Assembly (NCBI RefSeq): GCF_900109175.1
Contig: NZ_FNZE01000008.1
Coordinates: 62,001 to 126,000 of the forward strand
DNA length: 64,000 nt
Origin: Pseudomonas linyingensis
GTDB taxonomy: Bacteria; Pseudomonadota; Gammaproteobacteria; Pseudomonadales; Pseudomonadaceae
Direction of reading: 5' to 3'
The notes beneath the pieces are model-generated. The model searched no databases. It saw nothing but the letters and a program-made list of their open reading frames with translations, and was not told where the DNA came from. The translations under genes were made by a program, and so were the position numbers. Shown piece after piece: positions 13,806 to 61,371 of the stretch; within the stretch, counting starts at the first letter, position 1, and each line of letters opens with the position of its first letter.

Positions 13806-14972
13806 ATGGCTGACGACAGCAGCGATCAGGACGACAAGACAGAAGCGGCGACACCCCGGCGCTTGGAAAAGGCTCGCGAAGACGGGCAGGTCGCCCGTTC
13901 CCGCGAATTGAGCACCTTCCTGCTGCTGCTCGGCGGTGTGGGCGGGCTGTGGGCGATGGGCAGTACGCTCTACGCCCAGCTTGGCCTGGTCATGGAGCAG
14001 TCGTTCCTGTTCGAGCGCAACGTGGCGTTCGATCCGGCGGTGATGGTCGCCCACTTCACCGGCTTGGCGCAGCACAGCCTGTTCGCCCTGCTGCCGCTGT
14101 TCATCCTGCTGCTGCTGATTGCCCTGGTGTCGCCCATGCTGCTGGGGGGCTGGCTACTGTCGGCCAAGTCGCTGGCCCCGCAGTTTTCCCGCCTCAACCC
14201 GATCAAGGGACTCGCGCGGCTGTTTTCCACCCACGCGCTGGCCGAGCTGGGCAAGGCGATCGCCAAGTCGCTGCTGGTCGGCGCGGTGGCGGTGCAGTTC
14301 ATCTCCAGCCATGTCGGCGAGATGATGGCGCTGATGAACCAGCCGCTGTCCCAGGCGCTGGCCAATGCGCTGAGTCTGGCGGCACAGGCCTGCGCCATGA
14401 TCGTGCTGACCCTGGTGGTGGTGATCGGTATCGACGTGCCCTACCAGCTGTGGAGCCATGCCAAGAAGCTGCGCATGAGCAAGGAAGACCTGCGCCAGGA
14501 GCACAAGGAGTCCGAGGGTGATCCGCACGTCAAGGGGCGCATCCGCGCCCAGCAGCAGGCGGTGGCGCGGCGGCGGATGATGAGCAAGGTGCCGACCGCC
14601 GACGTGATCGTCACTAACCCGACCCACTATGCCGTGGCGCTGGCCTACGAGGACGGCAGCATGGGCGCGCCCAAGGTGGTGGCCAAGGGCACCGAACTGG
14701 TCGCCGCGCGCATCCGCGAGCTGGGCGCCGAGCACGGCGTGCCGATGCTCGAAGCGCCGCCGCTGGCCCGCGCGCTGTACCGCCATGTGGATCTCGACAA
14801 GGAGATCCCCGCCGAACTGTATACCGCCGTGGCCGAGGTGCTGGCCTGGGCCTACCGGCTCAAGCGCGTGCGCGAGGAGGGCGGCGAGATGCCGCCGACC
14901 CCGCATGACCTGCCGGTCCCGGCCGAACTCGATGAACTCAACCGGCGCGACACGCCCGAGGAATCCCGATGA
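13806..14972 (+). CDS. flhB: Flagellar export switch protein FlhB
   Basis: A 388-residue inner-membrane component of the flagellar type III export gate; its cytoplasmic domain cleaves itself to switch export from rod/hook to filament substrates. The N-terminal half carries the four expected hydrophobic segments (about residues 35-55, 90-115, 145-165, 190-210). The self-cleavage motif NPTH is present in VIVTNPTHYAVAL (about residue 273). The N-terminus DDSSDQDDKTEAATPRR is typical. The stop overlaps the flhA start in ATGA, so the two are translationally coupled. It opens the flhB-flhA-flhF-flhG-like-flhE-fliA run. Confidence 0.97.
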   Translation: MADDSSDQDDKTEAATPRRLEKAREDGQVARSRELSTFLLLLGGVGGLWAMGSTLYAQLGLVMEQSFLFERNVAFDPAVMVAHFTGLAQHSLFALLPLFILLLLIALVSPMLLGGWLLSAKSLAPQFSRLNPIKGLARLFSTHALAELGKAIAKSLLVGAVAVQFISSHVGEMMALMNQPLSQALANALSLAAQACAMIVLTLVVVIGIDVPYQLWSHAKKLRMSKEDLRQEHKESEGDPHVKGRIRAQQQAVARRRMMSKVPTADVIVTNPTHYAVALAYEDGSMGAPKVVAKGTELVAARIRELGAEHGVPMLEAPPLARALYRHVDLDKEIPAELYTAVAEVLAWAYRLKRVREEGGEMPPTPHDLPVPAELDELNRRDTPEESR

Positions 14973-17053
14973 ATGCGCTGACCGTGTGGCTGAACGGTTC
15001 CGGCCTGCGCGCCGGTGGACAGGCGCGACTGCTCGCCGGGCCGCTGCTGATCATCCTCATCCTGTCGATGATGATCCTGCCGCTGCCGCCGTTCGCCCTC
15101 GACCTGTTCTTCACCTTCAACATCGCCCTGTCGATCATGGTGTTGCTGGTCAGCATGTTCACCCAGAAGCCGCTGGACTTCGCCGCCTTCCCGGCGATCC
15201 TGCTGTTCACCACGCTGCTGCGCCTGTCGCTCAACGTCGCCTCGACCCGGGTGGTGCTGATGAACGGCCACGAGGGCGGCGATGCGGCGGGCAAGGTGAT
15301 CGAAGCCTTCGGCCACTTCCTGGTCGGCGGCAACTTCGCCGTGGGCCTGGCGGTATTCCTGATCCTGGTGATCATCAACTTCATGGTCATCACCAAGGGC
15401 GCCGGGCGCATCGCCGAGGTGGGCGCGCGCTTCACCCTCGACTCGATGCCCGGCAAGCAGATGGCCATCGACGCCGACCTCAACGCCGGCCTGATCGGTG
15501 AAGACGAGGCGCGCAGCCGGCGCCGCGAGGTTTCCCAGGAAGCCGACTTCTACGGTTCGATGGACGGTGCCAGCAAGTTCGTGCGCGGCGACGCGGTGGC
15601 CGGCCTGGTGATCATGGCGGTCAACGTCATCGGCGGCCTGCTGATCGGCATGCTGCAGCACGATCTGGCTTTCGCCCAGGCGGCGGAAACCTATGTGCTG
15701 TTGACCATCGGCGACGGCCTGGTGGCGCAGATCCCGGCGCTGGTGATCTCCACCGCGGCCGGCGTCACCGTGTCGCGGGTCAATACCGACGAGGACGTCG
15801 GCCAGCAGATGATCGGCCAGCTGTTCCACAACCCGCAGGTACTGTGGCTGGCGGCCGGGGTCATGGGTCTGCTCGGCCTGGTGCCGGGCATGCCCAATCT
15901 GGTGTTCCTGCTGTTCACTGCGTTGCTGGGTACCCTGGCCTGGTGGATGGGGCGCCGCAAGGAGGAGCAGCTCCTCGACAAGGTGATCAATCCCGAACTG
16001 CCACCGCCGGCCGAGGCGCCGGAAGCCAGCTGGGACGACGTGCAGCTGGTGGATACCCTCGGCCTGGAGGTCGGCCACCGGCTGATCCCACTGGTCGATC
16101 AGCGCCAGCACGGCGAGCTGCTCGGGCGGATCAAGAGCGTACGCAAGAAGTTCGCCCAGGAGGTCGGCTTCCTGCCGGCCGTGGTGCATATCCGCGACAA
16201 CCTCGAGCTGGGCGCCAATACCTACGTGATCCGCCTCAAGGGCGTCGAGGTCGGCCGCGCCGAACTGCAACCGGGCAAGTGGCTGGCCATCGACCCGGGC
16301 CAGGTGTCCGGCAAGCTGGAGGGGCAGGCCACCACCGACCCGGCCTTCGGCCTGCCGGCGGTGTGGATCGACCTCGAGCAGCGCGAGCTGGCCCAGGTCT
16401 ACGGCTACACGGTGGTGGATGCCAGCACCGTGGCGGCCACCCATCTCAACCACCTGCTGCATCGCCATGCCAGCGACATGCTCGGCCGCCAGGAGGTCCA
16501 GCAGCTGCTCGACAAGCTCGGCGAGGACAACAAGGCGCTGGTCGAGGAGGTGGTGCCCAAGGCCATCAGTCTCACCACCCTGCAGCGCATCCTGCAGAGC
16601 CTGCTGGAGGAGGATGTGTCGATCCGCGACATGCGCACCATCCTCGATACCCTGGCCGAGCATGCCAGCGCGCAGAGCGATGCCCAGGATCTGGTCGCCG
16701 TGGTGCGCGTGGCCCTCGGCCGGGCCATCACCCAGCAGTGGTTCGCCGGTCAGGGCGAGCTGCGCGTGATCGGCCTCGACGCCAGCCTCGAGCAGGTGCT
16801 GGCCCAGGCCATGAACAACGGCGGCGCGCTGGAACCCGGGCTGGCCGGCAACCTCATGCAGCTGGCCGAAACCGCCCTCAACCGCCAGGAAGCCAACGGC
16901 GACGCGCCGGTGCTGGTGGTCCAGCACCGCCTGCGCGCCTTGCTCGCACGCTTCCTGCGCCGGCGCCTGCGTCACCTGGTGGTGATGTCGCTGGCCGAGA
17001 TTCCCGATGACCGCATGCTGCGCGTGACCAGCCTGATCGGAGGCAATAGTTAA
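14969..17053 (+). CDS. flhA: Flagellar export protein FlhA
   Basis: A 694-residue, full-length export gate protein. The N-terminal half has eight hydrophobic segments (about residues 20-320) including the FHIPEP-family stretch with RFTLDSMPGKQMAIDADLNAG, which holds the conserved loop between membrane helices 4 and 5. The C-terminal cytoplasmic half forms the nonameric docking ring for chaperone-substrate complexes. It overlaps flhB upstream (ATGA) and flhF downstream (TAATG). Nothing unusual was seen. Confidence 0.97.
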   Translation: MNALTVWLNGSGLRAGGQARLLAGPLLIILILSMMILPLPPFALDLFFTFNIALSIMVLLVSMFTQKPLDFAAFPAILLFTTLLRLSLNVASTRVVLMNGHEGGDAAGKVIEAFGHFLVGGNFAVGLAVFLILVIINFMVITKGAGRIAEVGARFTLDSMPGKQMAIDADLNAGLIGEDEARSRRREVSQEADFYGSMDGASKFVRGDAVAGLVIMAVNVIGGLLIGMLQHDLAFAQAAETYVLLTIGDGLVAQIPALVISTAAGVTVSRVNTDEDVGQQMIGQLFHNPQVLWLAAGVMGLLGLVPGMPNLVFLLFTALLGTLAWWMGRRKEEQLLDKVINPELPPPAEAPEASWDDVQLVDTLGLEVGHRLIPLVDQRQHGELLGRIKSVRKKFAQEVGFLPAVVHIRDNLELGANTYVIRLKGVEVGRAELQPGKWLAIDPGQVSGKLEGQATTDPAFGLPAVWIDLEQRELAQVYGYTVVDASTVAATHLNHLLHRHASDMLGRQEVQQLLDKLGEDNKALVEEVVPKAISLTTLQRILQSLLEEDVSIRDMRTILDTLAEHASAQSDAQDLVAVVRVALGRAITQQWFAGQGELRVIGLDASLEQVLAQAMNNGGALEPGLAGNLMQLAETALNRQEANGDAPVLVVQHRLRALLARFLRRRLRHLVVMSLAEIPDDRMLRVTSLIGGNS

Positions 17054-19413
17054 TGAGTGTCAGACGTTTTGTCGGAGCCAACAGCCGCGACGCCATGCGC
17101 CAAGTGCGTGCGGCGCTGGGCGAGGATGCCCTGATCCTGTCCAACCGGACGATTGCCGAGGGCGTGGAGATCCTCGCCATGGCCGACGACGAGCACCAGC
17201 GGCTGGTGCCCGAGCCGGCCGCTGCGGCCCCTGCGCCAACCCTGGCGCCGCGTCCAGCGCAGCCCCAGCAACAACCGGCTGCGGCGACCATGCCCCCCGG
17301 CATGCGCCAGCCACCGGCGCTGCCGCCGGCAGGCTTTGCCGCCCAGCGCGCCGCTGCCTACCAGCGCACCCAGGAGGAAGCCGCGCCGCCACCCCCGCAG
17401 CCGGCCGCGGTGGACTTCGCGGCGCTGGGCGAGCTGCTGCTCGGCGAGATGCAGGGCATGCGCGAACTGCTCAACCGGCAGATCACCCCGGCCGCCAGCG
17501 CGGACAGTGGGGCCGGGCGCCTGCGTCAGGTGCTGCTGCTGGCCGGCTTCGGCGCCCACCTGTGCGACGAGATCCTCGCCGCGCTGCCGGCCGAGCTGCA
17601 GCACGCCACGGTCAACGACCCGGCCGCTCGCGCCTGGCTGGAGCGCCAGCTGGCTGCGCGCTTGCCGGTGCCGGCCGACGAGAACGATCTGCTCGACGAG
17701 GGCGGCGTGCTGGCGCTGGTCGGCCCCACCGGCGTCGGCAAGACCACCACCACCGCCAAGCTGGCGGCGCGCTACGTGATGCGCCACGGCAGCGGCCAGG
17801 TCGCCCTGCTCAGCACCGACAGCTACCGGATCGGTGCCCACGAGCAGTTGCGCATCTATGGCCGCCTGCTCGGCGTCGAGGTGCAGGCGCTGCCCGCCGA
17901 GGCCGCACTGGACAGCGTGCTGGCTCAATTGGCCGGCAAGCGCCTGGTGATCATCGACACCATCGGTATGAGCCAGCGCGACCAGCGCCTGATCGGCCAG
18001 ATCGCCCAGCTCGGCGGTACCGGCCATCCGGTGCGCCTGATGCTGCTGCTCAACGCCGCCAGCCACGGCGACACCCTGGAAGAGGTGGTCGCTACCTACC
18101 AGCGTGCCGCCCGCGCCGCCGGTAGCCGCCTGGACGACTGCATCGTCACCAAGAGCGACGAGGCCGCCCGGCTCGGCCCGGTGCTGGATATCCTGATCCG
18201 CCACAACCTGCGCCTGCACTACCTGTCCAGCGGCCAGCAGGTGCCCGAGGATCTCCACCCGGCCAGCGCGCCGGCGCTGGTGCGTCAGGCCCTGGCCGCC
18301 AGTCAGGACTCGCCGTTCGTGGCTGCGGGTAGCAGCGCGCCGGCAGCCCCCGGCCAGCGCCTGGAAGCCCTGTCGCGCGGCCTGCTCGGCCATGGCCGGG
18401 CGATGGCTGCGGCGCTCGACGGCCTGCGCCGCGAGGTCGACGGCTTTGCCCTGCTCGAGGCCGCCTGGCAGCTCGCCGCGTTGCCGCGCAGCCTGCAGGG
18501 CGAGCGCCTCGCCGCGCTGCTCGCCGCCAGCCCGCTGTCCGACGCCGGGCTGCTGCTGTGGGGCCGCGCCGGCGCACTGCCGGGGCAGACCTGGCAGATG
18601 CCGCTGCTCACCCTCGATGCCCTGGGCCGCCTGCAGGTCCGCCCCTGGCTTGCCCACCAGTTGCCGGCCGGCGCTGCGGCGCGGCTGGAGTGGGCCGGCC
18701 AGCAGTGGCCGCAGGCCGATCACCTGCTGCCGGCCAGCCCGGATGCCGCCACCCTGCGCGCCTTGGCGGCGCAGGGCAGCGCCTGGCTGGCGGCGGCCAA
18801 GGGCAACAGCCGGGTCGACTACCTCGGCGAACGCTACTCCCTGCAGACTCTGGCCGAGATCGCCATGCCGCAGGCCAGCCTGCACTGCCGCTACCGCAGT
18901 CATGCCATGCAGCTCGACCTGGCACTGCTCGACGTCGGCCTCGACGCCGGTCGCGAGCGCGGCCAGCACAGTGGCCCCTGGCCGCTGCAGGCCTGGTTCG
19001 GCCAGCTGCACGATATCGACGGCGGTCGTCCGCCACAGCAACGCTTCTGGCTGGCCAGCAGCGCCACGGCGGGCGAGGAGGGTTTGCTCCAGCAGCAGAC
19101 GTTGCTGCTGCGCCAACTGCAGAGCGACGATCTGGTCAGTCTGACCGGCCGCGCCTGGCTGAGCCTGGAAGGGCTGTTCGATCCGCTGCAGGCCGAGCTG
19201 CGCCTGTTCCTCGCCACCGGACTGGCAGCCAGCGCCAGCCATCTGGAGCAGGCCGAGGGCGACTGGGCCATGGACGTGCGCGCTCAGCTGCTCAGCCTGG
19301 CCGGCGGTCGTCGCCAGCGCAGCGCCCAGCAGCAGCTGGATGCCCTGCTGCATCTGCTGGCCGCCCGTGACACCCTGCGCCAGGTGGCCGGCAGCGCAGC
19401 CGGCGTGTCCTGA
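17053..19413 (+). CDS. flhF: Flagellar SRP-type GTPase FlhF with long C-terminal extension
   Basis: A 786-residue protein, nearly twice the usual 370-450 residues. The N-terminal B region (1-120, opening MSVRRFVGANSRDAMRQVR) is followed by a Pro/Ala-rich linker, the N domain, and a complete SRP-family G domain (about 215-405) with P-loop GPTGVGKTTTT, LLSTDSYRIGAHEQL, DTIGM and VTKSDEA. FlhF GTPases dimerise at the pole and fix flagellar position and number. Residues of about 410-786 form an extra domain rich in Ala, Leu and Gln that I do not recognise. No frameshift explains the length: the frame is continuous and GC-typical. It overlaps flhA and the FlhG-like gene by one base each. Confidence 0.9.
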   Translation: MSVRRFVGANSRDAMRQVRAALGEDALILSNRTIAEGVEILAMADDEHQRLVPEPAAAAPAPTLAPRPAQPQQQPAAATMPPGMRQPPALPPAGFAAQRAAAYQRTQEEAAPPPPQPAAVDFAALGELLLGEMQGMRELLNRQITPAASADSGAGRLRQVLLLAGFGAHLCDEILAALPAELQHATVNDPAARAWLERQLAARLPVPADENDLLDEGGVLALVGPTGVGKTTTTAKLAARYVMRHGSGQVALLSTDSYRIGAHEQLRIYGRLLGVEVQALPAEAALDSVLAQLAGKRLVIIDTIGMSQRDQRLIGQIAQLGGTGHPVRLMLLLNAASHGDTLEEVVATYQRAARAAGSRLDDCIVTKSDEAARLGPVLDILIRHNLRLHYLSSGQQVPEDLHPASAPALVRQALAASQDSPFVAAGSSAPAAPGQRLEALSRGLLGHGRAMAAALDGLRREVDGFALLEAAWQLAALPRSLQGERLAALLAASPLSDAGLLLWGRAGALPGQTWQMPLLTLDALGRLQVRPWLAHQLPAGAAARLEWAGQQWPQADHLLPASPDAATLRALAAQGSAWLAAAKGNSRVDYLGERYSLQTLAEIAMPQASLHCRYRSHAMQLDLALLDVGLDAGRERGQHSGPWPLQAWFGQLHDIDGGRPPQQRFWLASSATAGEEGLLQQQTLLLRQLQSDDLVSLTGRAWLSLEGLFDPLQAELRLFLATGLAASASHLEQAEGDWAMDVRAQLLSLAGGRRQRSAQQQLDALLHLLAARDTLRQVAGSAAGVS

Positions 19414-19928
19414 TGGCGGGAGGCGATCAGGCTGCCGGTCTGCGCCGCTGGGCCGAGCAGTTCGGCCCGGTCGGCGATGTGCAGGTCAGCATGGAGGCGG
19501 CGGCACCCACCGAGCGCACCGTGGAGCCGGTCACCCTGCTGGTGATCGGTGTGCCCGGGCTGCCGAGCAACCAGATCCGCCGGGTGCAGGCGACCCTGGC
19601 GCGCTGGCAGGCCAACGGCCATCGCTGGGTCGGTGACCTGACGCGCTGGAAGGTGGTGGCGCTGGAGGCGGACAGCCCGCACCTCGCGGTGCTGGCCAGC
19701 CAGCAATCGCGCTGGGCGCTGTGGGTCGAGGGCGATGCCGACGGTTTTCGCCGTGTCTACCGCACCCTGCGTCGCCTGCGTGAACAGGGCGGGCCGCAGC
19801 GCCTGCTGGTGCTGCATGACGGCATCGCCAGCCATGCCGGCCTGCTGCGCAACCTGCAGCAGGCGGCGGCCGGCTTTCTCGATACCGAATTGCTGCTGTT
19901 GCCCGAACAGCCGGAGGGTCCGTGCTGA
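19413..19928 (+). CDS. FlhG-like protein lacking the ATPase P-loop
   Basis: A 171-residue protein at the place of flhG (fleN, ylxH) directly after flhF. Its N-terminus MAGGDQAAGLRRW contains the DQAxxLR motif by which FlhG activates the FlhF GTPase. The C-terminal part (RLLVLHDGIASHAGLLRNL ... GFLDTELLLLP) resembles the end of FlhG/FleN, where a Val-Asn-Met strand precedes a helix and FLDVEL. The MinD-type Walker A (KGGVGKT) is absent: the matching strand reads LLVIGVPGLPSNQ. It is about 100 residues shorter than FlhG. I read it as a degenerate FlhG that keeps only the FlhF-contacting helix; homology is inferred from motifs and position. It overlaps flhF by one base and flhE by seven. Confidence 0.6.
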   Translation: MAGGDQAAGLRRWAEQFGPVGDVQVSMEAAAPTERTVEPVTLLVIGVPGLPSNQIRRVQATLARWQANGHRWVGDLTRWKVVALEADSPHLAVLASQQSRWALWVEGDADGFRRVYRTLRRLREQGGPQRLLVLHDGIASHAGLLRNLQQAAAGFLDTELLLLPEQPEGPC

Positions 19929-20347
19929 GGTGCGGCCATGGCCTGGCGGCGCTGCTGGCAGGCGGGTTGCTCGCGGGAGGCGTGCTGGCCAGTGACGATC
20001 CGGCTGGCGCAGCGGCGGCGCCGGGCAGCTGGCAGGTCAGGGCGCCGGCCCTGCAGGTCGCGCGCAGCGATCGCAGCACCTGCTCGCAGCCGCTGATACC
20101 GCCCGCGCTGGCTCGAGGGCGCCAGCTGGCCAGCCTGGGCTGGCAGTTCAGCTCTCCGCCCGGCGCAGCGCTGCGTGCCTGGCTCTGTCACCCGCAACAT
20201 TGCACCGCACTGTCCGGCAACCGCGGCCGCACCCGTGCGCTGGCCGGTCTGGATGCCGGCCAGCCGCTGCAACTGTGCTTCCGCCTGACAGCGGCCGGCC
20301 CGGCGCAGCGGGTGGCTGATCTGCAGTTGCTGGTCGACTACCGCTGA
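19922..20347 (+). CDS. flhE: Flagellar protein FlhE
   Basis: A 141-residue exported protein with an N-terminal signal segment (about residues 5-24, ending LAGGVLAS). The mature part matches the FlhE pattern: GxWQ near the start, LxxLxWxF, LRAWLCHPxHC with paired Cys, LSGxxGxTxAxxG, and the end LQLLVDYR (compare VIVNYR in enterobacterial FlhE). FlhE is a periplasmic protein encoded with flhB and flhA in peritrichous bacteria and is linked to proton-leak control and chaperone-like functions at the export gate. The GTG start overlaps the upstream stop. Its presence points to an FlhDC-type flagellar system. Confidence 0.75.
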   Translation: MLRCGHGLAALLAGGLLAGGVLASDDPAGAAAAPGSWQVRAPALQVARSDRSTCSQPLIPPALARGRQLASLGWQFSSPPGAALRAWLCHPQHCTALSGNRGRTRALAGLDAGQPLQLCFRLTAAGPAQRVADLQLLVDYR

Positions 20348-20573
20348 CATGACGCGGGGATGATCCCGGTCAATCCAGGCAGTGCCGCAAAGCGCGGAAT
20401 AGTCCATGTTGACGCCGACTATTCGGCGCTTGCCGGCCATTCGCCAGCGGTAACAATGCTTGAAGGATTGTCGCGCTCCGCCTCTGAGGCATGCCGGCAA
20501 GCCTGCGTCCTGCCATCCCATCCCCCGCCGGGAGGGCAGGACGCCTTGCTTGGATTGGCGCAGAGGCAGACGG

Positions 20574-21269
20574 ATGTACACCGCACAAGGCAAGATCAGA
20601 CAGCGCGACCTGCTCGAGGAACACCTGCCCCTGGTGCGCCGCCAGGCTTTGAGCCTGCAGGTGCGTCTGCCGGCCAGCGTCGAGCTGGACGACCTGATCC
20701 AGGCCGGGATGATCGGCCTGCTGGATGCGCTGAACCGCTACGACGCCAGCCATGGCGCCAGCTTCGCCACCTTTGCCAGTCAGCGCATCCGCGGCGCTAT
20801 GCTCGACGAGCTGCGCAGTCGCGACTGGGTGCCGCGCAGCGTGCGGCGCAACACCCGTGCGCTGGACGAGGCGATCCGCCGCCTCGAGCAGCACCTTGGT
20901 CGTCCGGCGGAGGAGCGCGAGATTGCTGCGGCCCTTGGTGTCGACCTTGCCGAATACCATCACCTGCTGATGGATGCCAACGGCAGCCAACTGGTGGCGC
21001 TCGACGACTTGCCTGAGGATGAAGGCGAAAGCCTCTGCGGTGAGCCCCATGCAACGCCACTGGCGGAATTGCTCGAAGGCCGCCGCCGCGCCGATCTGGT
21101 CAGGGCCATCGAACACCTACCCGAGCGCGAGAAGCTGCTGCTTGGGCTCTACTACCAGGAAGACCTCAACCTCAAGGAAATCGGCGCGGTGCTGGGCGTC
21201 AGCGAGTCGCGGGTCTGCCAGCTGCACAGCCAGGCGGTGGCTCGCCTGCGGGCGGCGCTGGCTGACTGA
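20574..21269 (+). CDS. fliA: Flagellar sigma factor FliA (sigma-28)
   Basis: A 231-residue sigma-70-family factor for late flagellar genes. Region 2 includes LVRRQALSLQ and DDLIQAGMIGLLDALNRYD, region 3 ELRSRDWVPRSVRR, and region 4 the helix-turn-helix LNLKEIGAVLGVSESRVCQL. The ATG at 20574 (preceded by AGAGGCAGACGG) gives the normal MYTAQGK start; the frame extends further up but without family similarity. It is the last gene of the flhB run; the 226-base gap before it may hold its own promoter, which I could not identify. Matching target promoters occur at 6793, 22923, 28591 and 31005. Confidence 0.96.
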   Translation: MYTAQGKIRQRDLLEEHLPLVRRQALSLQVRLPASVELDDLIQAGMIGLLDALNRYDASHGASFATFASQRIRGAMLDELRSRDWVPRSVRRNTRALDEAIRRLEQHLGRPAEEREIAAALGVDLAEYHHLLMDANGSQLVALDDLPEDEGESLCGEPHATPLAELLEGRRRADLVRAIEHLPEREKLLLGLYYQEDLNLKEIGAVLGVSESRVCQLHSQAVARLRAALAD

Positions 21270-21351: not shown

Positions 21352-22704
21352 CTATGCGCAGCAAACGAGGTTGCGTCCCTCTTTCTTGGCTCGATAGAGG
21401 GCCTTGTCTGCCCGATCGATCAGCCCGGCTAGCGTTTCGTCGTGGTTTTGCAGTTGGGCCACGCCAATGGATAGCGTGATCTGCCCAACCTGCGGCTGGT
21501 GCTTCTGCGCCACCCGTATGCGAATACGCTCTGCCTGCTTTTGCGCCGCGGGCAGATCGCAGTAAGGCAGCACGATCAGGAATTCCTCGCCACCCCAGCG
21601 CGCCACGCTGTCTGTGGTGCGCACGCTGGAGCGCAGCAGGTGTGCGACATCCTTCAGAACCACATCGCCAGCCGGATGCCCCCAGGTGTCGTTGATGGCC
21701 TTGAAGTGATCAACGTCGGCCAGCAACACGCAAATACTCGTGCCCCCTTCGCATGCTGCGCGGTAGGCTTTTTCAAGCTGCAACTCGCCGGAGCGTCTGT
21801 TCAGCAGGCCGGTCAGGCCGTCCACCGTGGCCTGCTTGCGCAACTCCTTCTCGGCCAGGATGCGTTTGCTGAGGTCCTTGATGATGCTGACGAAGTGGGT
21901 CATCACGCCCTTGCCGTCATACACGGGGGTGATGGTTTCCTCGCAGTGAATCAGCTGCCCATTCTTGTGCCGATTGACGACCGTAGCTCGAAACGTCTGC
22001 CCGGCCTTGAGGCTACGCCACAGGCGCTGATAGAAAGCGTCATTCTGTTCGCCAGACTTCAGGATGTTGGGCAGGCTTCCCAGGGCCTCGCCGGTGCTGT
22101 AGCCCGTGACCAGCTCGAAGCCTTGATTGGCAAACTCGATCTTGCCATCCACATCGGTGATAAAAATCGCGTCCTGCGCTGCATTGAGCGCGTTGGCCAG
22201 CAATTGATTCGTGTGCCGTGCCGCCACCAGCTCGCTGACGTCCTGTTGCACCGATACGAAATGGGTGATTTCGCCGCGCTCGTCGCGCATGGGCGATATG
22301 TTCCATTCGACGATGTAGGGCGTGCCGTCCTTGCGGTAGTTGACGGTCGAGCCTTTAAAGTGGCGCCCGGCTTGCAAGCACTCGCGCAGCTCTCGGAGTA
22401 TATCGGGGCTGGTCAGTGGGCCCTGCAGCAGGCGCGGCGTCTGGCCGATCAGCTCTTCCGAGCTGTAGCCGGACATCCTGCAAAACGCCGGATTGGCATA
22501 GAGAATCCGGGGTCCATGCGCTCCCTGCTGTGCATCGGTCAGCAACACCGCGTTGAATGACTGCTCAAGTGCCTGCCGGAACATGGAAGGCAGAATTTCT
22601 GGCGCGAGGTTTGCCTGCGCGTCCACTGCTGCAGCGGCAGGTTCCTCTGCGATCACCGCGCCCTGACTCTTTGCTCGAGGCAAGAGGCTGTCCGACTTGT
22701 TCAT
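21352..22704 (-). CDS. PAS-PAS-GGDEF diguanylate cyclase, cytoplasmic
   Basis: A 450-residue protein without membrane segments. Two PAS domains (about residues 40-165 and 165-290) carry typical phrases such as ILYANPAFCRMSGYSSEEL and ITDVDGKIEFANQGFELVTGY, each followed by a PAC-like strand. The C-terminal GGDEF domain (about 295-450) has DGLTGLLNRR, DVDHFKAINDTWGHPAGD and the catalytic RWGGEEFLIVL, so it should produce c-di-GMP. The first PAS resembles LOV/PYP-type sensors in spacing, but NCRFLQ is not present, so flavin photochemistry is not supported. It converges on fliA and its signal is unknown. Confidence 0.9.
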   Translation of the reverse strand: MNKSDSLLPRAKSQGAVIAEEPAAAAVDAQANLAPEILPSMFRQALEQSFNAVLLTDAQQGAHGPRILYANPAFCRMSGYSSEELIGQTPRLLQGPLTSPDILRELRECLQAGRHFKGSTVNYRKDGTPYIVEWNISPMRDERGEITHFVSVQQDVSELVAARHTNQLLANALNAAQDAIFITDVDGKIEFANQGFELVTGYSTGEALGSLPNILKSGEQNDAFYQRLWRSLKAGQTFRATVVNRHKNGQLIHCEETITPVYDGKGVMTHFVSIIKDLSKRILAEKELRKQATVDGLTGLLNRRSGELQLEKAYRAACEGGTSICVLLADVDHFKAINDTWGHPAGDVVLKDVAHLLRSSVRTTDSVARWGGEEFLIVLPYCDLPAAQKQAERIRIRVAQKHQPQVGQITLSIGVAQLQNHDETLAGLIDRADKALYRAKKEGRNLVCCA

Positions 22705-22922
22705 TTTTTAAAGTTATCGCTAGAAGTCATGTGCTGGGCTGAGGGCATGGCATGGATCGAACGGAGCCGTTTCCTGTCATGCCTGCAGGATTCGGATCGT
22801 CGTGCGCTCCCTCACCGGGTCGACTGCAAATTGTGAACTGCTCCGCAAAGTATCGGCAGGCCCAGGTTGAACTTGAGCCGGTTTTGCGCCCCATCAGGTG
22901 GTGGCGAAATGTGCCCGCTCTC

Positions 22923-22950
22923 TAAAGTCCTCTTCCAGATCGGCCGATAT
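22923..22950 (+). promoter_or_regulatory. Sigma-28-type promoter before the PilZ-HD-GYP gene
   Basis: TAAA at 22923-22926, 16 bases, then GCCGATAT at 22943-22950 (seven of eight against GCCGATAA). The spacer is one base longer than the usual 15. It lies 45 bases before the start at 22995, in a 290-base gap, and would place this c-di-GMP gene under FliA. Confidence 0.65.
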
Positions 22951-22994
22951 AGAGCGGTTATGCAGCGTTGCGCCGTTGACCAGAAGGGGCTTGG

Positions 22995-24680
22995 ATGGAA
23001 CAGCAAATCGATGCACCGACCCGGATAGACCACCCCGGTGAGTGCCTGTCCCTGCTCGAAGGGCTCTGTCAGCCTGGCGGCGCCTCGCTGCTGTTCTCGG
23101 CGCAGCCGGGACAGCCACATCCGGTGTTGCTCATGGATGTGGAGCATGGCGAGCGGCTGGTGATCGATATCACCGCGGTGCCCGAGTTGGCCGGCCGCAT
23201 CGAGCGCAACGACCCCTTTCATCTCTGCGGTCAGGTGGATGGCGCCATGCTGCGCACACCCAGCCTGACGGTGCTTGAGCGCCTCGATGTGCCGGAGCGG
23301 GTGCAGTTCAGTTGCGCCTACCCGCAGTGGCTGGACCTGCTGCACCGTCGAGGTTCCTTCCGTGCCGAACTGCGCAGCGACATGCTGGTCCAGGTCGAGC
23401 TGCATCCGGAAAGCGCCGAGCAGCCGCTGCTCGGGCGGCTGGCGAATCTTTCCCTCGGCGGCTGCCTGGTCGAGCTGCCGGCCAATCAGGCGGTGCGCAT
23501 CGATGGCCCGCAACAGCTCGACCTGCTGGTACTGAACTTCCCCGGCGGGCAGCGGCTGGCGGTGGGTGCGCGGATCTGCCACATCCGCAACGAGCCGGAC
23601 TGGCAGAGCCTGCGCTTCGGCTGCGAGTTCGTCGGTATCAATGGAGAACAGGAGCGGCGCCTGTGGCTGTATGTGCGGGAAATCGAGCGGGAAAAGGCGC
23701 GCACCAGCCATGACAGCTCGCGCGTGCTGCAGCCCTCGGCCCTGTTTGCTCAGCGCACGCCGTTGGTGCAGAGCCCGCCGATTGCTCGCCATTCGCTGCC
23801 AGGCAGCAGCATTGGCCGGCGTCTGGGGCGGGTGGCCGCCTATCTGGATACACAGCTCATTCGCCTGCGCCTGGGCGGCGTCATCGACTCCAAGCAGTTG
23901 TCGCAGCACAGCGACCTGCTGCTCGGCCTGCTGGCCGAAGACCGCGACGCCTTGCTGTTCGCGGTGCAGAGCCAGCCTGGCGAGCCGCAACTGGTACAGC
24001 ATGGCATCGCCATTGCCGTACGTCTGGCCGACCTGGCACAGGCGCGTGGGCTGCCCAGGCAAGCGGTCAAGGCGATTGTCGCCAGCGCACTGGTCCACGA
24101 CCTTGGCAAGGTCCTGCTGCCCACCGAGCTGCGCCGCGCCAGGCACCTGGATGCCGGCCAGCGGCAGAGTTTCGGTGCCCATGTCGGCCTGCTGCGCGAG
24201 CGGCTGGAGGGCTGCAAGTGGCTGGCCGCACCGGTGATGGATGCGGTGATCGGTTCGATCAACGAGCGCCTCGACGGCAGCGGCTACCCGCGCGCCGTGC
24301 CGGGCGAGCGCATTGGCGAGCTGGCGCGCATGGCTGCGGTGGTCGACGTGGTGGATGCCATGGGCCGGCCGCGTGCCGACCGCCCGGCCCAGTCTATAGA
24401 CAGCATCTACCGCCACCTGCTGGGAAGCGCCGGTCAATTCGACCCGCAGTGGAGTCAGAACTACATCCGCCACTTCGGGCTGATTCCGGTCGGCAGTCTG
24501 GTGCGCTTCAGCAGCGGCCAGCTGGCCTGGGTGCGTCGGCTGGATCGCGAGGGCCAGGTGACCCAGGTGCAGCTGGCGAGCAGTCACGAGTTTCCCCCGC
24601 AGGCTGCCGGTGCGCTGGTCGGCGCTGGCGAGCTGGCCAGCCTGGGGCGCATCGAAGGTGTACTGGTGGTGGAGACCTGA
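22995..24680 (+). CDS. YcgR-like PilZ protein fused to a partly degenerate HD-GYP domain
   Basis: A 561-residue cytoplasmic protein. Residues 1-115 resemble the YcgR N-terminal flagellar-brake domain; 116-235 form a PilZ domain with both c-di-GMP-binding motifs, RGSFR (119-123, RxxxR) and NLSLGG (151-156, [D/N]xSxxG). Residues of about 330-500 are HD-GYP: the HD pair in VHDLGK, a later His in FGAHVG, GSGYP, and VVDVVDAM are present, but the HHE metal-ligand motif that normally precedes DGSGYP reads SINERLDGSGYP, so two His ligands are missing. It may bind c-di-GMP at PilZ while the phosphodiesterase is weak or dead. A sigma-28-type promoter precedes it and a hybrid kinase follows. Confidence 0.8.
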   Translation: MEQQIDAPTRIDHPGECLSLLEGLCQPGGASLLFSAQPGQPHPVLLMDVEHGERLVIDITAVPELAGRIERNDPFHLCGQVDGAMLRTPSLTVLERLDVPERVQFSCAYPQWLDLLHRRGSFRAELRSDMLVQVELHPESAEQPLLGRLANLSLGGCLVELPANQAVRIDGPQQLDLLVLNFPGGQRLAVGARICHIRNEPDWQSLRFGCEFVGINGEQERRLWLYVREIEREKARTSHDSSRVLQPSALFAQRTPLVQSPPIARHSLPGSSIGRRLGRVAAYLDTQLIRLRLGGVIDSKQLSQHSDLLLGLLAEDRDALLFAVQSQPGEPQLVQHGIAIAVRLADLAQARGLPRQAVKAIVASALVHDLGKVLLPTELRRARHLDAGQRQSFGAHVGLLRERLEGCKWLAAPVMDAVIGSINERLDGSGYPRAVPGERIGELARMAAVVDVVDAMGRPRADRPAQSIDSIYRHLLGSAGQFDPQWSQNYIRHFGLIPVGSLVRFSSGQLAWVRRLDREGQVTQVQLASSHEFPPQAAGALVGAGELASLGRIEGVLVVET

Positions 24681-24683
24681 GTG

Positions 24684-27017
24684 ATGACGGATAGCTGGCT
24701 CGTCGATCCGATCATCTTCGTGGTGCTGGGCGTTATGGCGCTGGGCTTGCTGGCCGGCCTGCAGGATTGCCTGCGTCATGGCCGGCAGACCCTCAAGTCG
24801 TGGGAGGCGGATGGCTTGCTTCCGGCGTCAGGTTCTGTCCATGCCGAACATGCCGGTCAGTTGGCGGCAATCCACCGGGTTATGGCGGTGATCGAGTTCG
24901 ATCTGCAGGGCAACATCCTCACCGCCAACCAGAACTTTCTCGACCTGTTCGGCTGCAGCCTGGCGGAGATTCGCGGCTGCCATCACCAGATCCTCTGCCC
25001 GCCGGGCATCGCCGAAAGCGTGGCCTATCGCGATCTGTGGGAGCGCCTCGGCCGCGGTGAATACGAAACCGGCGAATACCACCGGCTCTCGCTCGACGGC
25101 CGCGAGCTGTGGATCCAGGCGTCCTATCACCCGATCTTCGCGGCCGACGGCAAACCCGGCAAGGTGGTCAAGTTCGCCAGCGACATCAGCTTTCATCGCG
25201 AGATGGAGGGCGAGTTGCTCAAGGCCAAGGAGCGCGCCGAGCGCGCTGCGGCGGCGAAAAGCGCCTTCCTGGCCAACATGAGCCACGAGATACGCACGCC
25301 GATGAACGCCATCATCGGCTTCACCGAGCTGCTGCTGGGCAGTTCGCTGGACGACATGCAGCGCCGACACCTGTACACCGTGCAGTACTCGGCGCGCTCG
25401 CTGCTGGGGCTGCTCAACGACATCCTCGACACCGCCAAGCTCGAGCGCGGAGTCATCGAGCTGGAAGAGGTCGACTTCTCGCTGCGCGAACTGGTCGAGC
25501 GGACCTGCGCGGTGCTGCGGCCCAACGCCGCGGCCAAGGGCGTGGCGCTGAATGTCGACTACTCCGCGGCGCTGGGTGAATGCTTCCGTGGTGATCCACT
25601 GCGCATCCAGCAGGTGCTGCTCAACCTGCTCGGCAACGCCATCAAGTTCACTTGCCAAGGCGAGGTGCGCCTCGAACTGTTGCCTGTCGCCGGGCAGATA
25701 CACATGGCCGTGCATGACACTGGCATCGGCATCCCGGCCGACCGCCTGGAGAAGATCTTCGAGCCCTTTGCCCAGGCCGACGCCTCCATGAGCCGTCGTT
25801 TTGGCGGCACCGGCCTGGGCACCACCATCGCGCGTCAACTGGTGGAGTTGATGGGTGGGCGCATTGAGGTGCAGAGCAGGCCCGGCGAAGGCAGCAGCTT
25901 CCGGGTAACCCTGTCGCTGCCCGCCGCGCAGGCGCTGCCGTTGCAACCGGTGCAGCGCCTGCCGCAGTTGCCGTCGCTGCACATTCTGGTGGTCGACGAC
26001 GTGGCGCAGAACGTCGAGCTGCTGGTGGTCAGCCTCGGTCGCCTCGGTCATCGGGTCAGCGCGGCCTCCGATGGCGCGCAGGCCCTGGCGGCGCTGCAGC
26101 GTCAGCGCTTCGATGTGGTGCTGATGGACGTGCAGATGCCCGGCACCGATGGCCTGGCCGCCACGCGTCGGTGGCGCGACCACGAACAGGCCCACGACCT
26201 GCCACGCACTCCGCTGATCGCCCTCACCGCCGGCGTCCTCGAGCGTGACCGCGAAGCCGCCCGCGAGGCGGGCATGGATGGCTTCGCCGCCAAGCCGGTG
26301 GAGCTGGATCGGCTGCTGGGCGAGATTGTCCGGGTCATCGGAGGCGCGCAGGCGCCTGTGCAGTCAGGGCCTGTGGTTGGGGCGACGACAGAAGTGCCGG
26401 TCATCGACTGGCCGCAAGGCGTGGCACTGTGGGGCAGCGAGGCTGCCCTGCTGCGAGGGATCCGGGCCTTCTGCGCTACACAGTCCGCAGTGCTCGAGGA
26501 GTTGCAGGTTGTGCTTGCCGGTGGTGTGGATGCCGAGGCGCAGCAATTGCTGCATCGCCTGCGCGGCTCGGCCGGCAACCTCGGCCTGCGGCGCCTCTGT
26601 GCCCAGGTCGGCGAGCTGGAGCGGGCACTGCGCAGTGGGCAGCGCGAGGCGCTACTTGGCGCTCCGCAGGCGTTGCGCCATGCCCTGGAACAGCTGCTTC
26701 TGCAGTTGCCAGCGCCTGAGGGGGGCGAGGCGTGCCCCGCTGCGGCAGATTGCCGGGCCGCCGTCTGCGCGACTGACACTTGCCCGCTGGTCAAGCTGCG
26801 CAGTCCGCTCGAACGCCTTGCAGCCGCCCTGCAGCGTGGCGAGCTGGACGAGCAGGCGCTGTGCGCACTCGCCGGCAGCTTCGACCCGCACCATCACTCC
26901 ACCGGCATGGCGGCCTTGCAAGCGGCCATCGACGATTTCGATTTCGACCGGGCGCTGCAGCTGCTGCACGAGCTGCAGACCTGGCTAGACATACTGCCTG
27001 AGGGCCAGCCAGCGTGA
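24684..27017 (+). CDS. Hybrid sensor histidine kinase, PAS-HisKA-HATPase-REC-Hpt
   Basis: A 777-residue kinase with one N-terminal membrane helix (about residues 7-27) and no periplasmic domain. A PAS domain (about 60-170) precedes HisKA with phospho-His H201 in NMSHEIRTP. The ATPase domain has NLLGNAIKF, DTGIGIP and GGTGLGTT (the second glycine box is a slight variant). The receiver has LVVDDV and LMDVQMPG, and a C-terminal Hpt domain carries LLHRLRGSAGNLGL. It is therefore built for an internal multistep phosphorelay. The ATG at 24684 is used because GGAG lies well placed before it; a GTG three bases earlier is possible. It overlaps the HD-GYP regulator by four bases, its probable partner. 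Confidence 0.9.
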   Translation: MTDSWLVDPIIFVVLGVMALGLLAGLQDCLRHGRQTLKSWEADGLLPASGSVHAEHAGQLAAIHRVMAVIEFDLQGNILTANQNFLDLFGCSLAEIRGCHHQILCPPGIAESVAYRDLWERLGRGEYETGEYHRLSLDGRELWIQASYHPIFAADGKPGKVVKFASDISFHREMEGELLKAKERAERAAAAKSAFLANMSHEIRTPMNAIIGFTELLLGSSLDDMQRRHLYTVQYSARSLLGLLNDILDTAKLERGVIELEEVDFSLRELVERTCAVLRPNAAAKGVALNVDYSAALGECFRGDPLRIQQVLLNLLGNAIKFTCQGEVRLELLPVAGQIHMAVHDTGIGIPADRLEKIFEPFAQADASMSRRFGGTGLGTTIARQLVELMGGRIEVQSRPGEGSSFRVTLSLPAAQALPLQPVQRLPQLPSLHILVVDDVAQNVELLVVSLGRLGHRVSAASDGAQALAALQRQRFDVVLMDVQMPGTDGLAATRRWRDHEQAHDLPRTPLIALTAGVLERDREAAREAGMDGFAAKPVELDRLLGEIVRVIGGAQAPVQSGPVVGATTEVPVIDWPQGVALWGSEAALLRGIRAFCATQSAVLEELQVVLAGGVDAEAQQLLHRLRGSAGNLGLRRLCAQVGELERALRSGQREALLGAPQALRHALEQLLLQLPAPEGGEACPAAADCRAAVCATDTCPLVKLRSPLERLAAALQRGELDEQALCALAGSFDPHHHSTGMAALQAAIDDFDFDRALQLLHELQTWLDILPEGQPA

Positions 27018-28036
27018 CCAGCGACAGCACTGAACGCCGCCAGAAAATCCTCATCGTCGACGACGAGCCGAGCAACCTGCAGGTACTGCGCCACATCCTC
27101 CAGGACAGCTACCGGCTGCTATTCGCCCGCGACGGCGACAAGGCCATCGAGCTGGCCTGCCGCGAGCGGCCCGACCTGATCCTGCTCGACGTGATGATGC
27201 CGGGCATGACCGGCTACGAGGTGTGCCGGGTGCTCAAGGGCGAGGCGGCGACCCGCGCCATCCCGGTGATCTTCGTCACCGCACTGGCCGATATCGACGA
27301 CGAGGCCGAGGGCTTCGAGGTCGGCGCGGTGGACTACATCACCAAGCCGGTCAGCCCGCTGATCGTCAAGGCGCGCGTGCGCACCCACCTGTCGCTGGTG
27401 CGTGTCGACGACCTGCGTGAAAGCCGCCTGCAGATCGTCCAGCGCCTGGGAATGGCCGCCGAGTACAAGGACAACGAGACCGGCCTGCACGTCATCCGCA
27501 TGAGCCACTACTCGCGGCTGCTGGCGTTGGCCGCCGGTTTCGGCGAGGACGAGGCCGAAGATCTGCTGCACGCCGCGCCGATGCACGACGTTGGCAAGAT
27601 TGGCATCCCCGATGCCATCCTGCGCAAGCCTGGCAAGCTGGATGAGACGGAGTGGGATGTGATGCGCGAGCACTCGCGCATCGGCGCGCAGATCATCGGC
27701 GAACACAGCGGCGGGCTGCTGCAGATGGCCCACAACATCGCCCTGCATCACCATGAGAAATGGGACGGCAGCGGCTATCCGGCCGGCCTTTCCGGCACCG
27801 ATATTCCGCTGGAAGCGCGTATCGTGGCGATTGCCGACGTGTTCGACGCCCTGACCAGCGAGCGCCCCTACAAGAAGGCGTGGAGCGTGGAGGAGGCCGT
27901 CGCGCTGATCCGCAGCGAAGCCGGCCGCCACTTCGAGCCGCAACTGGTGGAGCTGTTCCTCGACAGCTGCTTGCCGCGGGTGCTCGAAGTTAGGGAGTTG
28001 TGGAAGGAGCGCGAGGTCAGCTGCGCATCAACCTGA
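27014..28036 (+). CDS. HD-GYP response regulator (c-di-GMP phosphodiesterase)
   Basis: A 340-residue protein with a receiver domain (residues 10-130; DDEP and phospho-acceptor D59 in LLDVMMPG) and an intact HD-GYP domain (about 150-330) with MHDVGK, HHHEKWDGSGYP and IADVFDAL, all metal-ligand motifs in place. Such proteins hydrolyse c-di-GMP when phosphorylated. The GTG start overlaps the stop of the upstream hybrid kinase (GTGA), which suggests translational coupling and a cognate pair. Its 3' end overlaps the convergent small membrane protein gene by 20 bases. Confidence 0.92.
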   Translation: MTSDSTERRQKILIVDDEPSNLQVLRHILQDSYRLLFARDGDKAIELACRERPDLILLDVMMPGMTGYEVCRVLKGEAATRAIPVIFVTALADIDDEAEGFEVGAVDYITKPVSPLIVKARVRTHLSLVRVDDLRESRLQIVQRLGMAAEYKDNETGLHVIRMSHYSRLLALAAGFGEDEAEDLLHAAPMHDVGKIGIPDAILRKPGKLDETEWDVMREHSRIGAQIIGEHSGGLLQMAHNIALHHHEKWDGSGYPAGLSGTDIPLEARIVAIADVFDALTSERPYKKAWSVEEAVALIRSEAGRHFEPQLVELFLDSCLPRVLEVRELWKEREVSCAST

Positions 28037-28526
28037 GCATCTCGGCCTCGGCCTTCCACAGCTTGTCGTACAGAGTGGCGGCGGCCTTGTTGGCGGTAGG
28101 GGGCACTTCGCTGGTGATCTTGAAGCGGTGCTCGCGGGTCAGGCCGATGGCTTCGCCGAGCAGTCCCATCACCTCCAGCGGCAGCACCGCGCCGTGGCGG
28201 GTCAGGTACTCGCCCAGCGCCGTGTCGATCTTGGCGAAGTCGTAGGCGATCTCGTTGCAGGCCGCTTCCCACGCCATGCCGGGGAAATGGAAGTTCGGCA
28301 GGAACTGGCGCAGCAGGGCCACCAGCGCCGAGGCGGCCTCGTACTCCTTGTCGAACAGCAACTCGTTCTTCTTCAGGCGCAGCTCGTGACCGCGATCATG
28401 CTCGCGCAGCATTCGCGCGGCCCAGCTGCGGCCGATCCAGCCTGACAACAGCAGGGTGAGCAGGCTGCCGACGCCCAGGGCGGCGAACAGGACGACAGCG
28501 ATTTCCGTGGTGGCGCGGAGTTCCAT
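28017..28526 (-). CDS. Small membrane-anchored protein of unknown function
   Basis: A 169-residue protein with one N-terminal hydrophobic segment (about residues 8-30, TEIAVVLFAALGVGSLLTLLLSG split by few polar residues), then a charged helical cytoplasmic or periplasmic part with a basic heptad-like stretch (about 35-60). I do not recognise the family. The ATG at 28526 is preferred to an upstream start at 28586. A sigma-28-type promoter lies about 65-90 bases upstream on this strand, which suggests a place in the flagellar regulon. Its 3' end overlaps the convergent HD-GYP regulator gene by 20 bases. Confidence 0.65.
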   Translation of the reverse strand: MELRATTEIAVVLFAALGVGSLLTLLLSGWIGRSWAARMLREHDRGHELRLKKNELLFDKEYEAASALVALLRQFLPNFHFPGMAWEAACNEIAYDFAKIDTALGEYLTRHGAVLPLEVMGLLGEAIGLTREHRFKITSEVPPTANKAAATLYDKLWKAEAEMLRLMRS

Positions 28527-28590
28527 GGCAAGGCTCGAAACAGGGGAATGGGATCGATGCGCGCCGGCGAAGGCCTGCCGCGCCAAAAGG

Positions 28591-28618
28591 TTATCGTCAG
28601 AAGGGCGGCGGAACTTTA
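28591..28618 (-). promoter_or_regulatory. Sigma-28-type promoter (minus strand)
   Basis: On the minus strand: TAAA (28615-28618), 16 bases, then GACGATAA (28591-28598), seven of eight against GCCGATAA. As at 22923, the spacer is one base over the usual 15. It points at the membrane protein gene starting at 28526. Confidence 0.6.
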
Positions 28619-28691
28619 GGGGGCCGAAGCAAGCAGGTGGATTGAACGGGGATCAAATGGGCTGTCCCCAATTTCCGGGTGTGGCGGCAGC

Positions 28692-28973
28692 TCAGTGCGT
28701 GGCTTTGGGTGGGCATGGCAGAGCAAGCGCGGGGCTATGGGCGACGGCCATCGCTCCCAGATGCCCTTGGCGTTGTTCGATGATCCGCGCCTGCAGCTCG
28801 TGCAGGGAAATGTAGTCGGCCTTCATTGCCATGTTGTAGCCGGTGGTTTCGAAACGCTGCATCAGGTGCATGAGCTGGGCGAGGAGGGCATCCAGCTCGG
28901 CGATGATGCGCTGGTGATCGGCAGTGCGCATCACGCCGGATGAGGGGTGTTCGGGCGGTGGCCGGTTGCTCAC
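28692..28973 (-). CDS. Small protein downstream of flagellin, unknown function
   Basis: A 93-residue soluble protein, mostly helical in its middle (about residues 15-65: RTADHQRIIAELDALLAQL, then MKADYISLHELQARII). There is no signal peptide. The size, helicity and position after flagellin are what one might expect of a FliT/FlgN-like chaperone or assembly factor, but I see no diagnostic motif and do not assign it. Its start overlaps the stop of the YjfB-like gene by four bases, so the two are probably cotranslated. Confidence 0.6.
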   Translation of the reverse strand: MSNRPPPEHPSSGVMRTADHQRIIAELDALLAQLMHLMQRFETTGYNMAMKADYISLHELQARIIEQRQGHLGAMAVAHSPALALPCPPKATH

Positions 28974-34102: not shown

Positions 34103-34115
34103 GGAGCGCGGGGTG

Positions 34116-54093: not shown

Positions 54094-54239
54094 TGTTGCA
54101 AGTTCGCGCCTGAATGATCCTGCACGCCTGATTTTTCATGGCGTTGGTAGGCGTCGCCTGCCTTGCCTCTGGAATTCTTGTGGATTCATAAGTGTATTCG
54201 TTCGGCGGTTCTCTGCGGGCTGCCGGCATGGGAGGGACG

Positions 54240-54536: not shown

Positions 54537-54539
54537 GCC

Positions 54540-55382: not shown

Positions 55383-55452
55383 CAGGTCGTACTGAGTTGA
55401 AGCGTGTAATGCCGGGCTGCTGTGGTGGCAGCTGCATTTCGAATGAGGAGAG

Positions 55453-56793: not shown

Positions 56794-56803
56794 GGAGTGC
56801 GCA

Positions 56804-58769: not shown

Positions 58770-58772
58770 GTC

Positions 58773-59974: not shown

Positions 59975-60014
59975 ACCAGCCCCGTGAATTTCCCGAATGC
60001 CTTGTGAGTGCCCC

Positions 60015-61358: not shown

Positions 61359-61371
61359 GAAGGAGAGAGCG

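Follow-up and report, generated by a model that had tools for sequence, protein, structure and literature searches.

A YcgR-PilZ protein of Pseudomonas linyingensis fused to an HD-GYP domain without its histidine pair, a probable flagellar brake

What can a phosphodiesterase-type domain that has lost part of its metal site do in a protein that otherwise resembles a flagellar brake? The question is raised by a gene of Pseudomonas linyingensis which occupies nt 22995..24680 (+ strand, ATG start, 561 amino acids) of a 64,000 nt stretch of DNA (GCF_900109175.1, NZ_FNZE01000008.1, positions 62,001-126,000, forward strand), called the window below. A preliminary description of the window had presented its product as a PilZ/YcgR brake with a built-in, possibly inactive or regulatory, phosphodiesterase module. 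Our analysis of the open reading frame (ORF), using Pfam, profile searches and an AlphaFold2 model, supports this description through the N-terminal half, the PilZ motifs, the flagellar locus, the promoter and the loss of the histidine pair. On balance we favour the view that the protein is a brake of the single flagellar system, activated by cyclic diguanylate (c-di-GMP), in which a non-catalytic HD-GYP domain would serve as a second c-di-GMP-responsive module. The sequence comparisons give good support both to the predicted brake role and to the predicted loss of catalysis. Loci are designated by L, genomes by G, genera by g and families by f, and papers cited by PMC number are quoted from excerpts.

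Profile, Pfam and model matches together give the layout of the protein: a YcgR-like N-domain (residues ~9-112, nt 23019..23330), a PilZ domain (residues ~117-240, nt 23343..23714), a variable linker, an HD-GYP domain (residues ~331-495, nt 23985..24479) and a small C-terminal beta domain (residues ~496-557, nt 24480..24665), all on the + strand, the last one being delimited by the secondary structure of the model. Two Pfam domains scored above the cut-off, PilZ (PF07238, residues 121-227, E 2.4e-13) and HD_5 (PF13487, residues 331-484, E 1.6e-12); no Pfam model matched the YcgR N-domain, which was recognised via profile and fold. When a profile built from 41 family members was run with hmmsearch against the PDB sequences, the best match of the N-terminal half was the FlgZ brake of Pseudomonas putida, PP4397 (2gjg, profile 11-239, E 2.6e-22), and E. 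coli YcgR (5y6f) was also matched (E 4.3e-8). The C-terminal half matched PmGH (4mcw, E 8.2e-17), DvhD (9rbz, E 1.4e-15) and PA4781 (E 3.4e-12). The same structural relatives were recovered by VIA-align and Foldseek from the AlphaFold2 model (pLDDT 85.5, pTM 0.69, with blocks within residues 11-110 at pLDDT 79-94); the VIA Z values were 18.5 for 9rbz, 16.7 for 4mcw, 15.8 for 5y6g (PilZ domain), 15.3 for 3kyf (Foldseek E 2.6e-14) and 12.2 for 5y6h (E. coli YcgR N-domain). The fusion of a YcgR/PilZ brake to an HD-GYP domain, as previously suggested, is thus borne out by profile, fold and Pfam.

In brakes of the YcgR type the PilZ domain is regarded as the c-di-GMP sensor. Both motifs reported earlier for this half, RGSFR and NLSLGG, are present (R119-GSF-R123, nt 23349-23363; N151-LSLG-G156, nt 23445-23462). 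In the family alignment (41 members; L073, L044, L042 and L037 were left out of the 45 sequences then available) R119 is found in 39 members, while R123, S153, G156 and an Asn or Asp at position 151 are invariant. The protein therefore shares with FlgZ/PP4397 and E. coli YcgR the N-domain and a PilZ domain with RxxxR and (D/N)xSxxG, but carries approx. 320 extra residues (the HD-GYP-like and beta domains) and is tied to another flagellar system. The linker is variable at residues 241-270, and residues 256-269 of the model fall below pLDDT 50; just after the PilZ domain, at residues 247-251, there is a conserved PSxLF motif (S248 and L250 in 39/41, F251 in 38/41).

In the HD-GYP domain, the VHDLGK (V367-HDLG-K372) and GSGYP (D427-GSGY-P432) motifs could also be confirmed, although they lie in the C-terminal half and not, as the preliminary description had it, at the C-terminus, since the beta domain comes after them. 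The reading SINER instead of HHER ahead of DGSGYP is correct (S421-INE-R425, nt 24255-24269): the protein has INERLDGSGYP where catalytic HD-GYP enzymes have HHExxDGxGYP. PmGH has eight metal ligands, of which five are kept here (H189, H221, D222, H250 and D305, corresponding to H336, H368, D369, H396 and D451), as is the counterpart of Lys225 (K372). The three missing ones are E185, replaced by Q332, and the pair H276/H277, replaced by I422/N423. The position of E185 is variable in HD-GYP proteins at large, while H276A and H277A each essentially abolish the activity of PmGH (PMC4159591). The claim of lost metal ligands thus holds for two motif histidines, each of which was needed for activity in PmGH. 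The overall HD-GYP fold is shared with the catalytic phosphodiesterases PmGH and PA4781, and the target has in common with PmGH, besides the ligands and Lys225, the GYP motif, the guanine-binding R314 and an Arg for K317; it differs from both enzymes in the missing histidine pair. Changes in the GYP motif or in the guanine-binding R314 and K317 caused no substantial loss of activity in PmGH, according to the excerpt of PMC4159591.

The replacement is not peculiar to this strain. None of the 41 sequences in the alignment has His at position 422 (Ile 26, Ala 7, Val 5, Leu 3), and all of them have Asn at 423. Six more distant fused frames (L108-L113, genera g325, g343, g345 and g327) are likewise without the pair, a single His being kept in L112 and an Asn standing at the second place in L110. 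As a control, HHE was found in 41/41 loci that had been brought in via ordinary HD-GYP matches, a count which reads only domains fitting the pattern E..DG.G[YF]P. Since the pair is absent from all aligned members and from the distant frames while the controls have HHE, the change must be old and fixed and is no local accident. The other ligands are better kept: H336, H368 and H396 are invariant, and D369 and D451 are each present in 34/41. Several divergent copies were also seen. The second copy of G004 (L042, outside the alignment) reads IHRRLDDGGAP, with His at the second place and a broken GYP; the second copy of G093 (L044) is split into two frames; in L072, L099 and L100, from the order of G263, the HD is kept and the GYP loop is lost; in L123 and L125, grouped with the paralog clade described next, HT stands in place of HD and the GYP loop is intact. 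This paralog clade (L071, L085, L094, L096, L097, L098 and L101) has Thr, Ser, Ala or Val for the Asp of HD, a Lys for the D305 counterpart and an intact GYP loop, and may have a different role.

Because the histidine pair is gone, catalysis is not expected, and the HD-GYP part of the protein is in all likelihood non-catalytic, as judged from these replacements. The retention of HD and three more metal ligands tells against this view, since a bound metal and residual activity would then be possible. The domain might have kept phosphodiesterase activity with a reduced metal site, in which case the protein would brake the motor and at the same time lower the local c-di-GMP level, resetting itself. 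H336, H368, D369, K372, H396 and D451 are all in place for such a function, RpfG is an accepted phosphodiesterase despite missing two of the eight PmGH ligands, different ones (PMC4159591), and among the Vibrio cholerae HD-GYP proteins those without the HD motif are inactive while VCA0681 is active though it lacks one residue required in PmGH (PMC4212101). The example of VCA0681 means that the question of catalysis is not closable by sequence alone. Nevertheless, the very residues whose replacement by Ala essentially abolished PmGH activity (PMC4159591) are absent from every aligned member, and the counterpart of D222 is lost in 7/41, so that we regard a self-resetting brake as improbable.

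If the domain does not cut c-di-GMP, its conservation calls for another explanation. In the four close pairs formed with L034, L036, L038 and L035 the ratio of nonsynonymous to synonymous substitution rates (dN/dS) of residues 331-495 was 0.13, 0.23, 0.26 and 0.23, respectively, and that of the PilZ part was 0.14, 0.27, 0.31 and 0.41. The linker was less constrained (0.46-0.99), and the C-terminal beta domain had the highest values among the folded parts (0.38-0.75). The values for these pairs show purifying selection on the HD-GYP part, which is also the most conserved domain, with a mean identity to the target of 50% over 40 comparisons (PilZ, 41%). Local decay or a pseudogene could therefore be ruled out, the pair being gone in every aligned member and the HD-GYP dN/dS being 0.13-0.26. 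The low dN/dS and the top conservation together indicate that the domain is kept for something besides chemistry that depends on the histidine pair.

A guide to what this might be is DvhD of Desulfovibrio vulgaris, whose HD-GYP domain has Met and Asn in place of the pair. DvhD binds c-di-GMP but did not hydrolyse it with any of the ions supplied, and c-di-GMP causes the isolated HD-GYP domain to dimerise (PMC13090378). Like the target, DvhD has an HD-GYP fold without the pair, an Asn at the second His place and a retained GYP loop, its MNE aligning on INE. DvhD (9RBZ/9RC0) differs in being a membrane-bound receptor that also contains a PAS and a periplasmic domain, and in having lost the HD as well (SQ; PMC13090378), whereas the target retains HD and has YcgR-PilZ as partner domains. 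Four canonical c-di-GMP contacts of DvhD have an identical residue in the target (Y621=Y431, R650=R460, L577=L385, M646=M456) and K582 is replaced by R390. With five of the eight contacts alike, binding of c-di-GMP by the HD-GYP domain appears plausible. In the family, Y431 (38/41), R460 (37/41) and R463 (34/41) of the pocket are kept. Three contacts differ (Y652 to D462, E668 to S478, Y523 to Q332), which weighs against such binding. Since part of the metal site was lost long ago and the domain is still conserved, it probably senses c-di-GMP a second time; to its being a second receptor proper, by analogy with DvhD, we give an even chance. The top row of the VIA comparison with the model was another protein, the unconventional HD-GYP-type Bd1817 (3TM8, Z 20.7). 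Bd1817 is no YcgR-PilZ fusion and has its own changes elsewhere in the sequence. It has been called inactive (PMC4159591).

The brake function is suggested by the setting of the gene as well as by its N-terminal half. The sigma-28 (FliA)-type promoter TAAA-N16-GCCGATAT proposed earlier was found on the + strand at 22923..22950, 44 nt 5' of the ATG, and none of 300 mononucleotide shuffles of the upstream region gave a match as good. No generic sigma-70 site was found in window 22500-28700. Relatives were scored with TAAA-N14..16-GCCGATAA at a threshold of 10 of 12; a site was present upstream of 26 of the 44 family genes, the target's own not being among them, whereas among 515 other ORFs from these loci, taken as controls (at least 120 codons, chosen by a simple GC3 rule), 30 had one. 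At least eight of these 30 belong to flagellar genes (flagellin in L034, L036, L037 and L084, fliD in L084, fliS in L083, L086 and L102), which makes the contrast a conservative one. Thus a chance match was ruled out by the shuffles, the relatives and the control ORFs, and the product of fliA likely transcribes the target gene.

The fliA gene itself (20460..21269, +, PF04542/04545/04539; ORF as called, the true start possibly lying further in) is upstream of the target both in the window and in all eight g1/g17 flagellar loci compared; it is directly adjacent in some loci, and genes are inserted between the two in L036, L037 and L038. It is preceded in the window by genes for a cheY-like receiver, cheZ, flhB, flhA (14969..17053, +, PF00771), flhF (SRP54-type GTPase), a 171-aa ORF and flhE (19922..20347, +, PF06366), the latter a marker of the type of flagellar system. 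The flagellar setting is evident from flhA, flhB, flhE and fliA as well as from the FliA-type site. A flagellar locus and a link to FliA are also known for FlgZ, but Pseudomonas flgZ sits behind flgMN (PMC3913639), while the target gene comes after fliA. The flhA gene is the only one of the genome at E<=1e-60, which rules out a second flagellar system. A separate FlgZ elsewhere in the genome was likewise ruled out: there are four PilZ matches (E<=0.01), and the three besides the target are in short frames of 129, 127 and 265 codons, the ORF inside the last one having 138 codons at most; a YcgR-like protein with an undetectable PilZ would escape this search. In 22 relatives the other PilZ matches were in short frames, in known fusion copies or in other frames; G529, G686 and G004 have frames (263, 264 and 285 codons) that may encode separate proteins of YcgR type.

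The gene and this type of flagellar system occur together. Among 95 genomes (own and relatives) ten have a full-length member, and the identical ten have an FlhA at least 70% identical, the other 85 having neither; these ten are not independent, since most belong to one genus. The copy of Geopseudomonas sagittaria, a relative from soil, is 84% identical to the target. In the class sample 4/369 genomes matched over both halves and in the phylum sample 10/398 matched at E<=1e-45 (own genome included in both); in the order of G263 there were 7 matches in 85 genomes, one of them by the PilZ half only. Relatives also occur in family f36, which we infer to be Halomonadaceae, with 122 of 151 genomes matching at E<=1e-45. 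There, an FlhA at least 66% identical is present in 121 genomes (target gene at E<1e-100 in 110, missing from 11); 16 have an FlhA 55-57% identical, 11 of these with weaker matches to the target; and 14 have no FlhA at E<=1e-60, the gene being present in one, nine gene-less genomes having been placed by difference in this sorting. Fisher tests take no account of relatedness and do not enter the argument.

These distributions bear on whether the protein has to do with the motor at all, for it could be a general c-di-GMP effector and no brake. In ten f36 loci the gene lies beside parE-parC-serB (named by Pfam in L074, by similarity in the others), none of the flagellar genes used as queries being nearby, and some paralogs lack the FliA-type site, as a general effector would lead one to expect. 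But eight of those ten copies still retain such a site (L043, L074, L075, L077, L078, L079, L080 and L082, not L076 and L090), the gene is beside fliS or fliD in six further f36 loci (L070, L083, L084, L086, L089 and L102, the site score being reached only in L086), and its presence follows this FlhA type. A general effector is thus hardly probable, and the domain content and setting argue that the protein is quite probably a motor brake.

Some observations count against the preferred reading, that of a brake with a non-catalytic second module. A site at score 10 is missing from 18 of the 44 family genes, the seven paralogs with a changed HD Asp among those scored all falling below it; as these also differ at the D305 counterpart, not every family member need be a brake. 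The 11 f36 genomes that have this FlhA without the gene and the one with the gene without FlhA loosen the association, the second copy in G004 has a degraded GYP, and fused proteins occur also in f36 genera with a 55%-identical FlhA, where G480 and G482 additionally have a separate YcgR-like frame. Separate YcgR-like frames in G461 and G536 belong here too, counted with one and two stops, which are possibly terminal. As for the promoter, two loci in which fliA immediately precedes the gene, L039 and L040, have no site.

How the gene came to be in Pseudomonas is suggested by FlhA. The FlhA of the genome is up to 84% identical to those of f36 versus 54-58% to the best FlhA of the other Pseudomonadaceae sampled, and the Pseudomonadaceae members of the fusion appear to nest among the f36 members in a quick FastTree tree with midpoint root. 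Probably the flagellar system, brake included, moved between bacterial families; from the FlhA identities the whole flagellar system of this genome (window 13806-21269 and elsewhere) appears to have been replaced. Plasmid carriage was not borne out, since no plasmid record covered 80% of either query; the best plasmid match was a distantly related protein encoded on a plasmid of Pantoea alhagi, which has HT in place of HD as well as NANERLDGTGYP. Among the matches listed in a search of open-licence PMC papers, no title or abstract start dealt with a YcgR-PilZ-HD-GYP fusion. The fusion is a real and conserved family, apparently undescribed, that is present in well over a hundred genomes.

Downstream, the target is followed with zero gap by a gene for a PAS hybrid histidine kinase with REC and Hpt domains (24681..27017, +), which overlaps by 4 bases a REC-HD-GYP response regulator gene with an intact HHEKWDGSGYP (27014..28036, +, from ORF and domain scan). 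Given this spacing, brake and phosphodiesterase may be co-produced, and the hybrid kinase is a possible operon partner in this lineage. A ready phosphodiesterase next door also speaks against residual activity of the fused domain. The kinase and REC-HD-GYP pair is behind the brake in 4 of the 7 brake-bearing g1 genomes (G000, G002, G005, G007), and is not at this place in G003 (29% kinase match only), G004, G006, G023 and G049. Further on, the window contains a flagellin gene (29282-30907), motA (~33293-34110, +, hidden beneath an antisense ORF) and motB (34056-34949); the ORF opposite motA has 1002 codons and covers it with its antisense part, the real gene (REC-GGDEF-EAL) beginning further in. 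Other parts of the window hold two chemoreceptor genes in tandem with near-identical starts (2348-4045 and 4192-5907; PAS and MCP signal domains in the first, the one scanned) and two similar ORF sets in tandem (54192-57325 and 58473-61899), which, to judge from their start sequences, resemble ring-cleavage and Rieske dioxygenase genes.

Divergent from the target lies a PAS-PAS-GGDEF gene (21352..22704, -), with a FliA-like site of its own, TCAA-N15-GCCGATAC, 145 nt before the start (1/300 shuffles as good). Docking of the GYP motif to GGDEF domains is known from RpfG, and the HD-GYP part could be a docking module whose NERLDGSGYP loop would bring in a GGDEF enzyme, such as this neighbour, or a part of the motor, providing local c-di-GMP for the PilZ domain. 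The adjoining gene with its own site would fit, as would the conservation of the loop, which ranks with the least variable stretches (N423, D427 and P432 in 41/41, Y431 in 38/41) and exceeds the HD Asp (34/41). On the other hand, of the eight g1/g17 loci just three (L036, L037, L038) have a GGDEF-type match (38-40% identity) between fliA and the target, five having none there, and we consider docking a doubtful alternative.

In the working model of a c-di-GMP-activated brake with a second module, FliA would turn the gene on together with the late flagellar genes. As c-di-GMP rises it would bind to the PilZ domain, and the N-terminal half would dock on the motor and slow it, by analogy with YcgR and FlgZ (PMC3913639). 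The HD-GYP domain, if it behaves as in DvhD, would bind c-di-GMP or pGpG in the remaining pocket without cutting it and alter the dimer, and the altered dimer could set the threshold or the cooperativity of the brake; in DvhD, the inactive HD-GYP domain is believed to switch the receptor in a similar way. A fuller version can be put forward tentatively, and we hold it to be possible rather than probable: a two-site brake in which the dead HD-GYP domain with its fixed Asn reads c-di-GMP or pGpG again and gates the YcgR-PilZ part cooperatively, the whole system having moved between families as a unit.

For P. linyingensis these results mean that, of the PilZ proteins detected in the genome, the only YcgR-like one bears a second domain of the c-di-GMP type, in which some catalytic ligands are missing while much of the pocket is retained. 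If the second site binds c-di-GMP, the brake would be tunable by a dead enzyme. If this is true, DvhD would be one case of a recurrent conversion of HD-GYP enzymes to receptors, and the His-to-Asn replacement would be a mark to seek.

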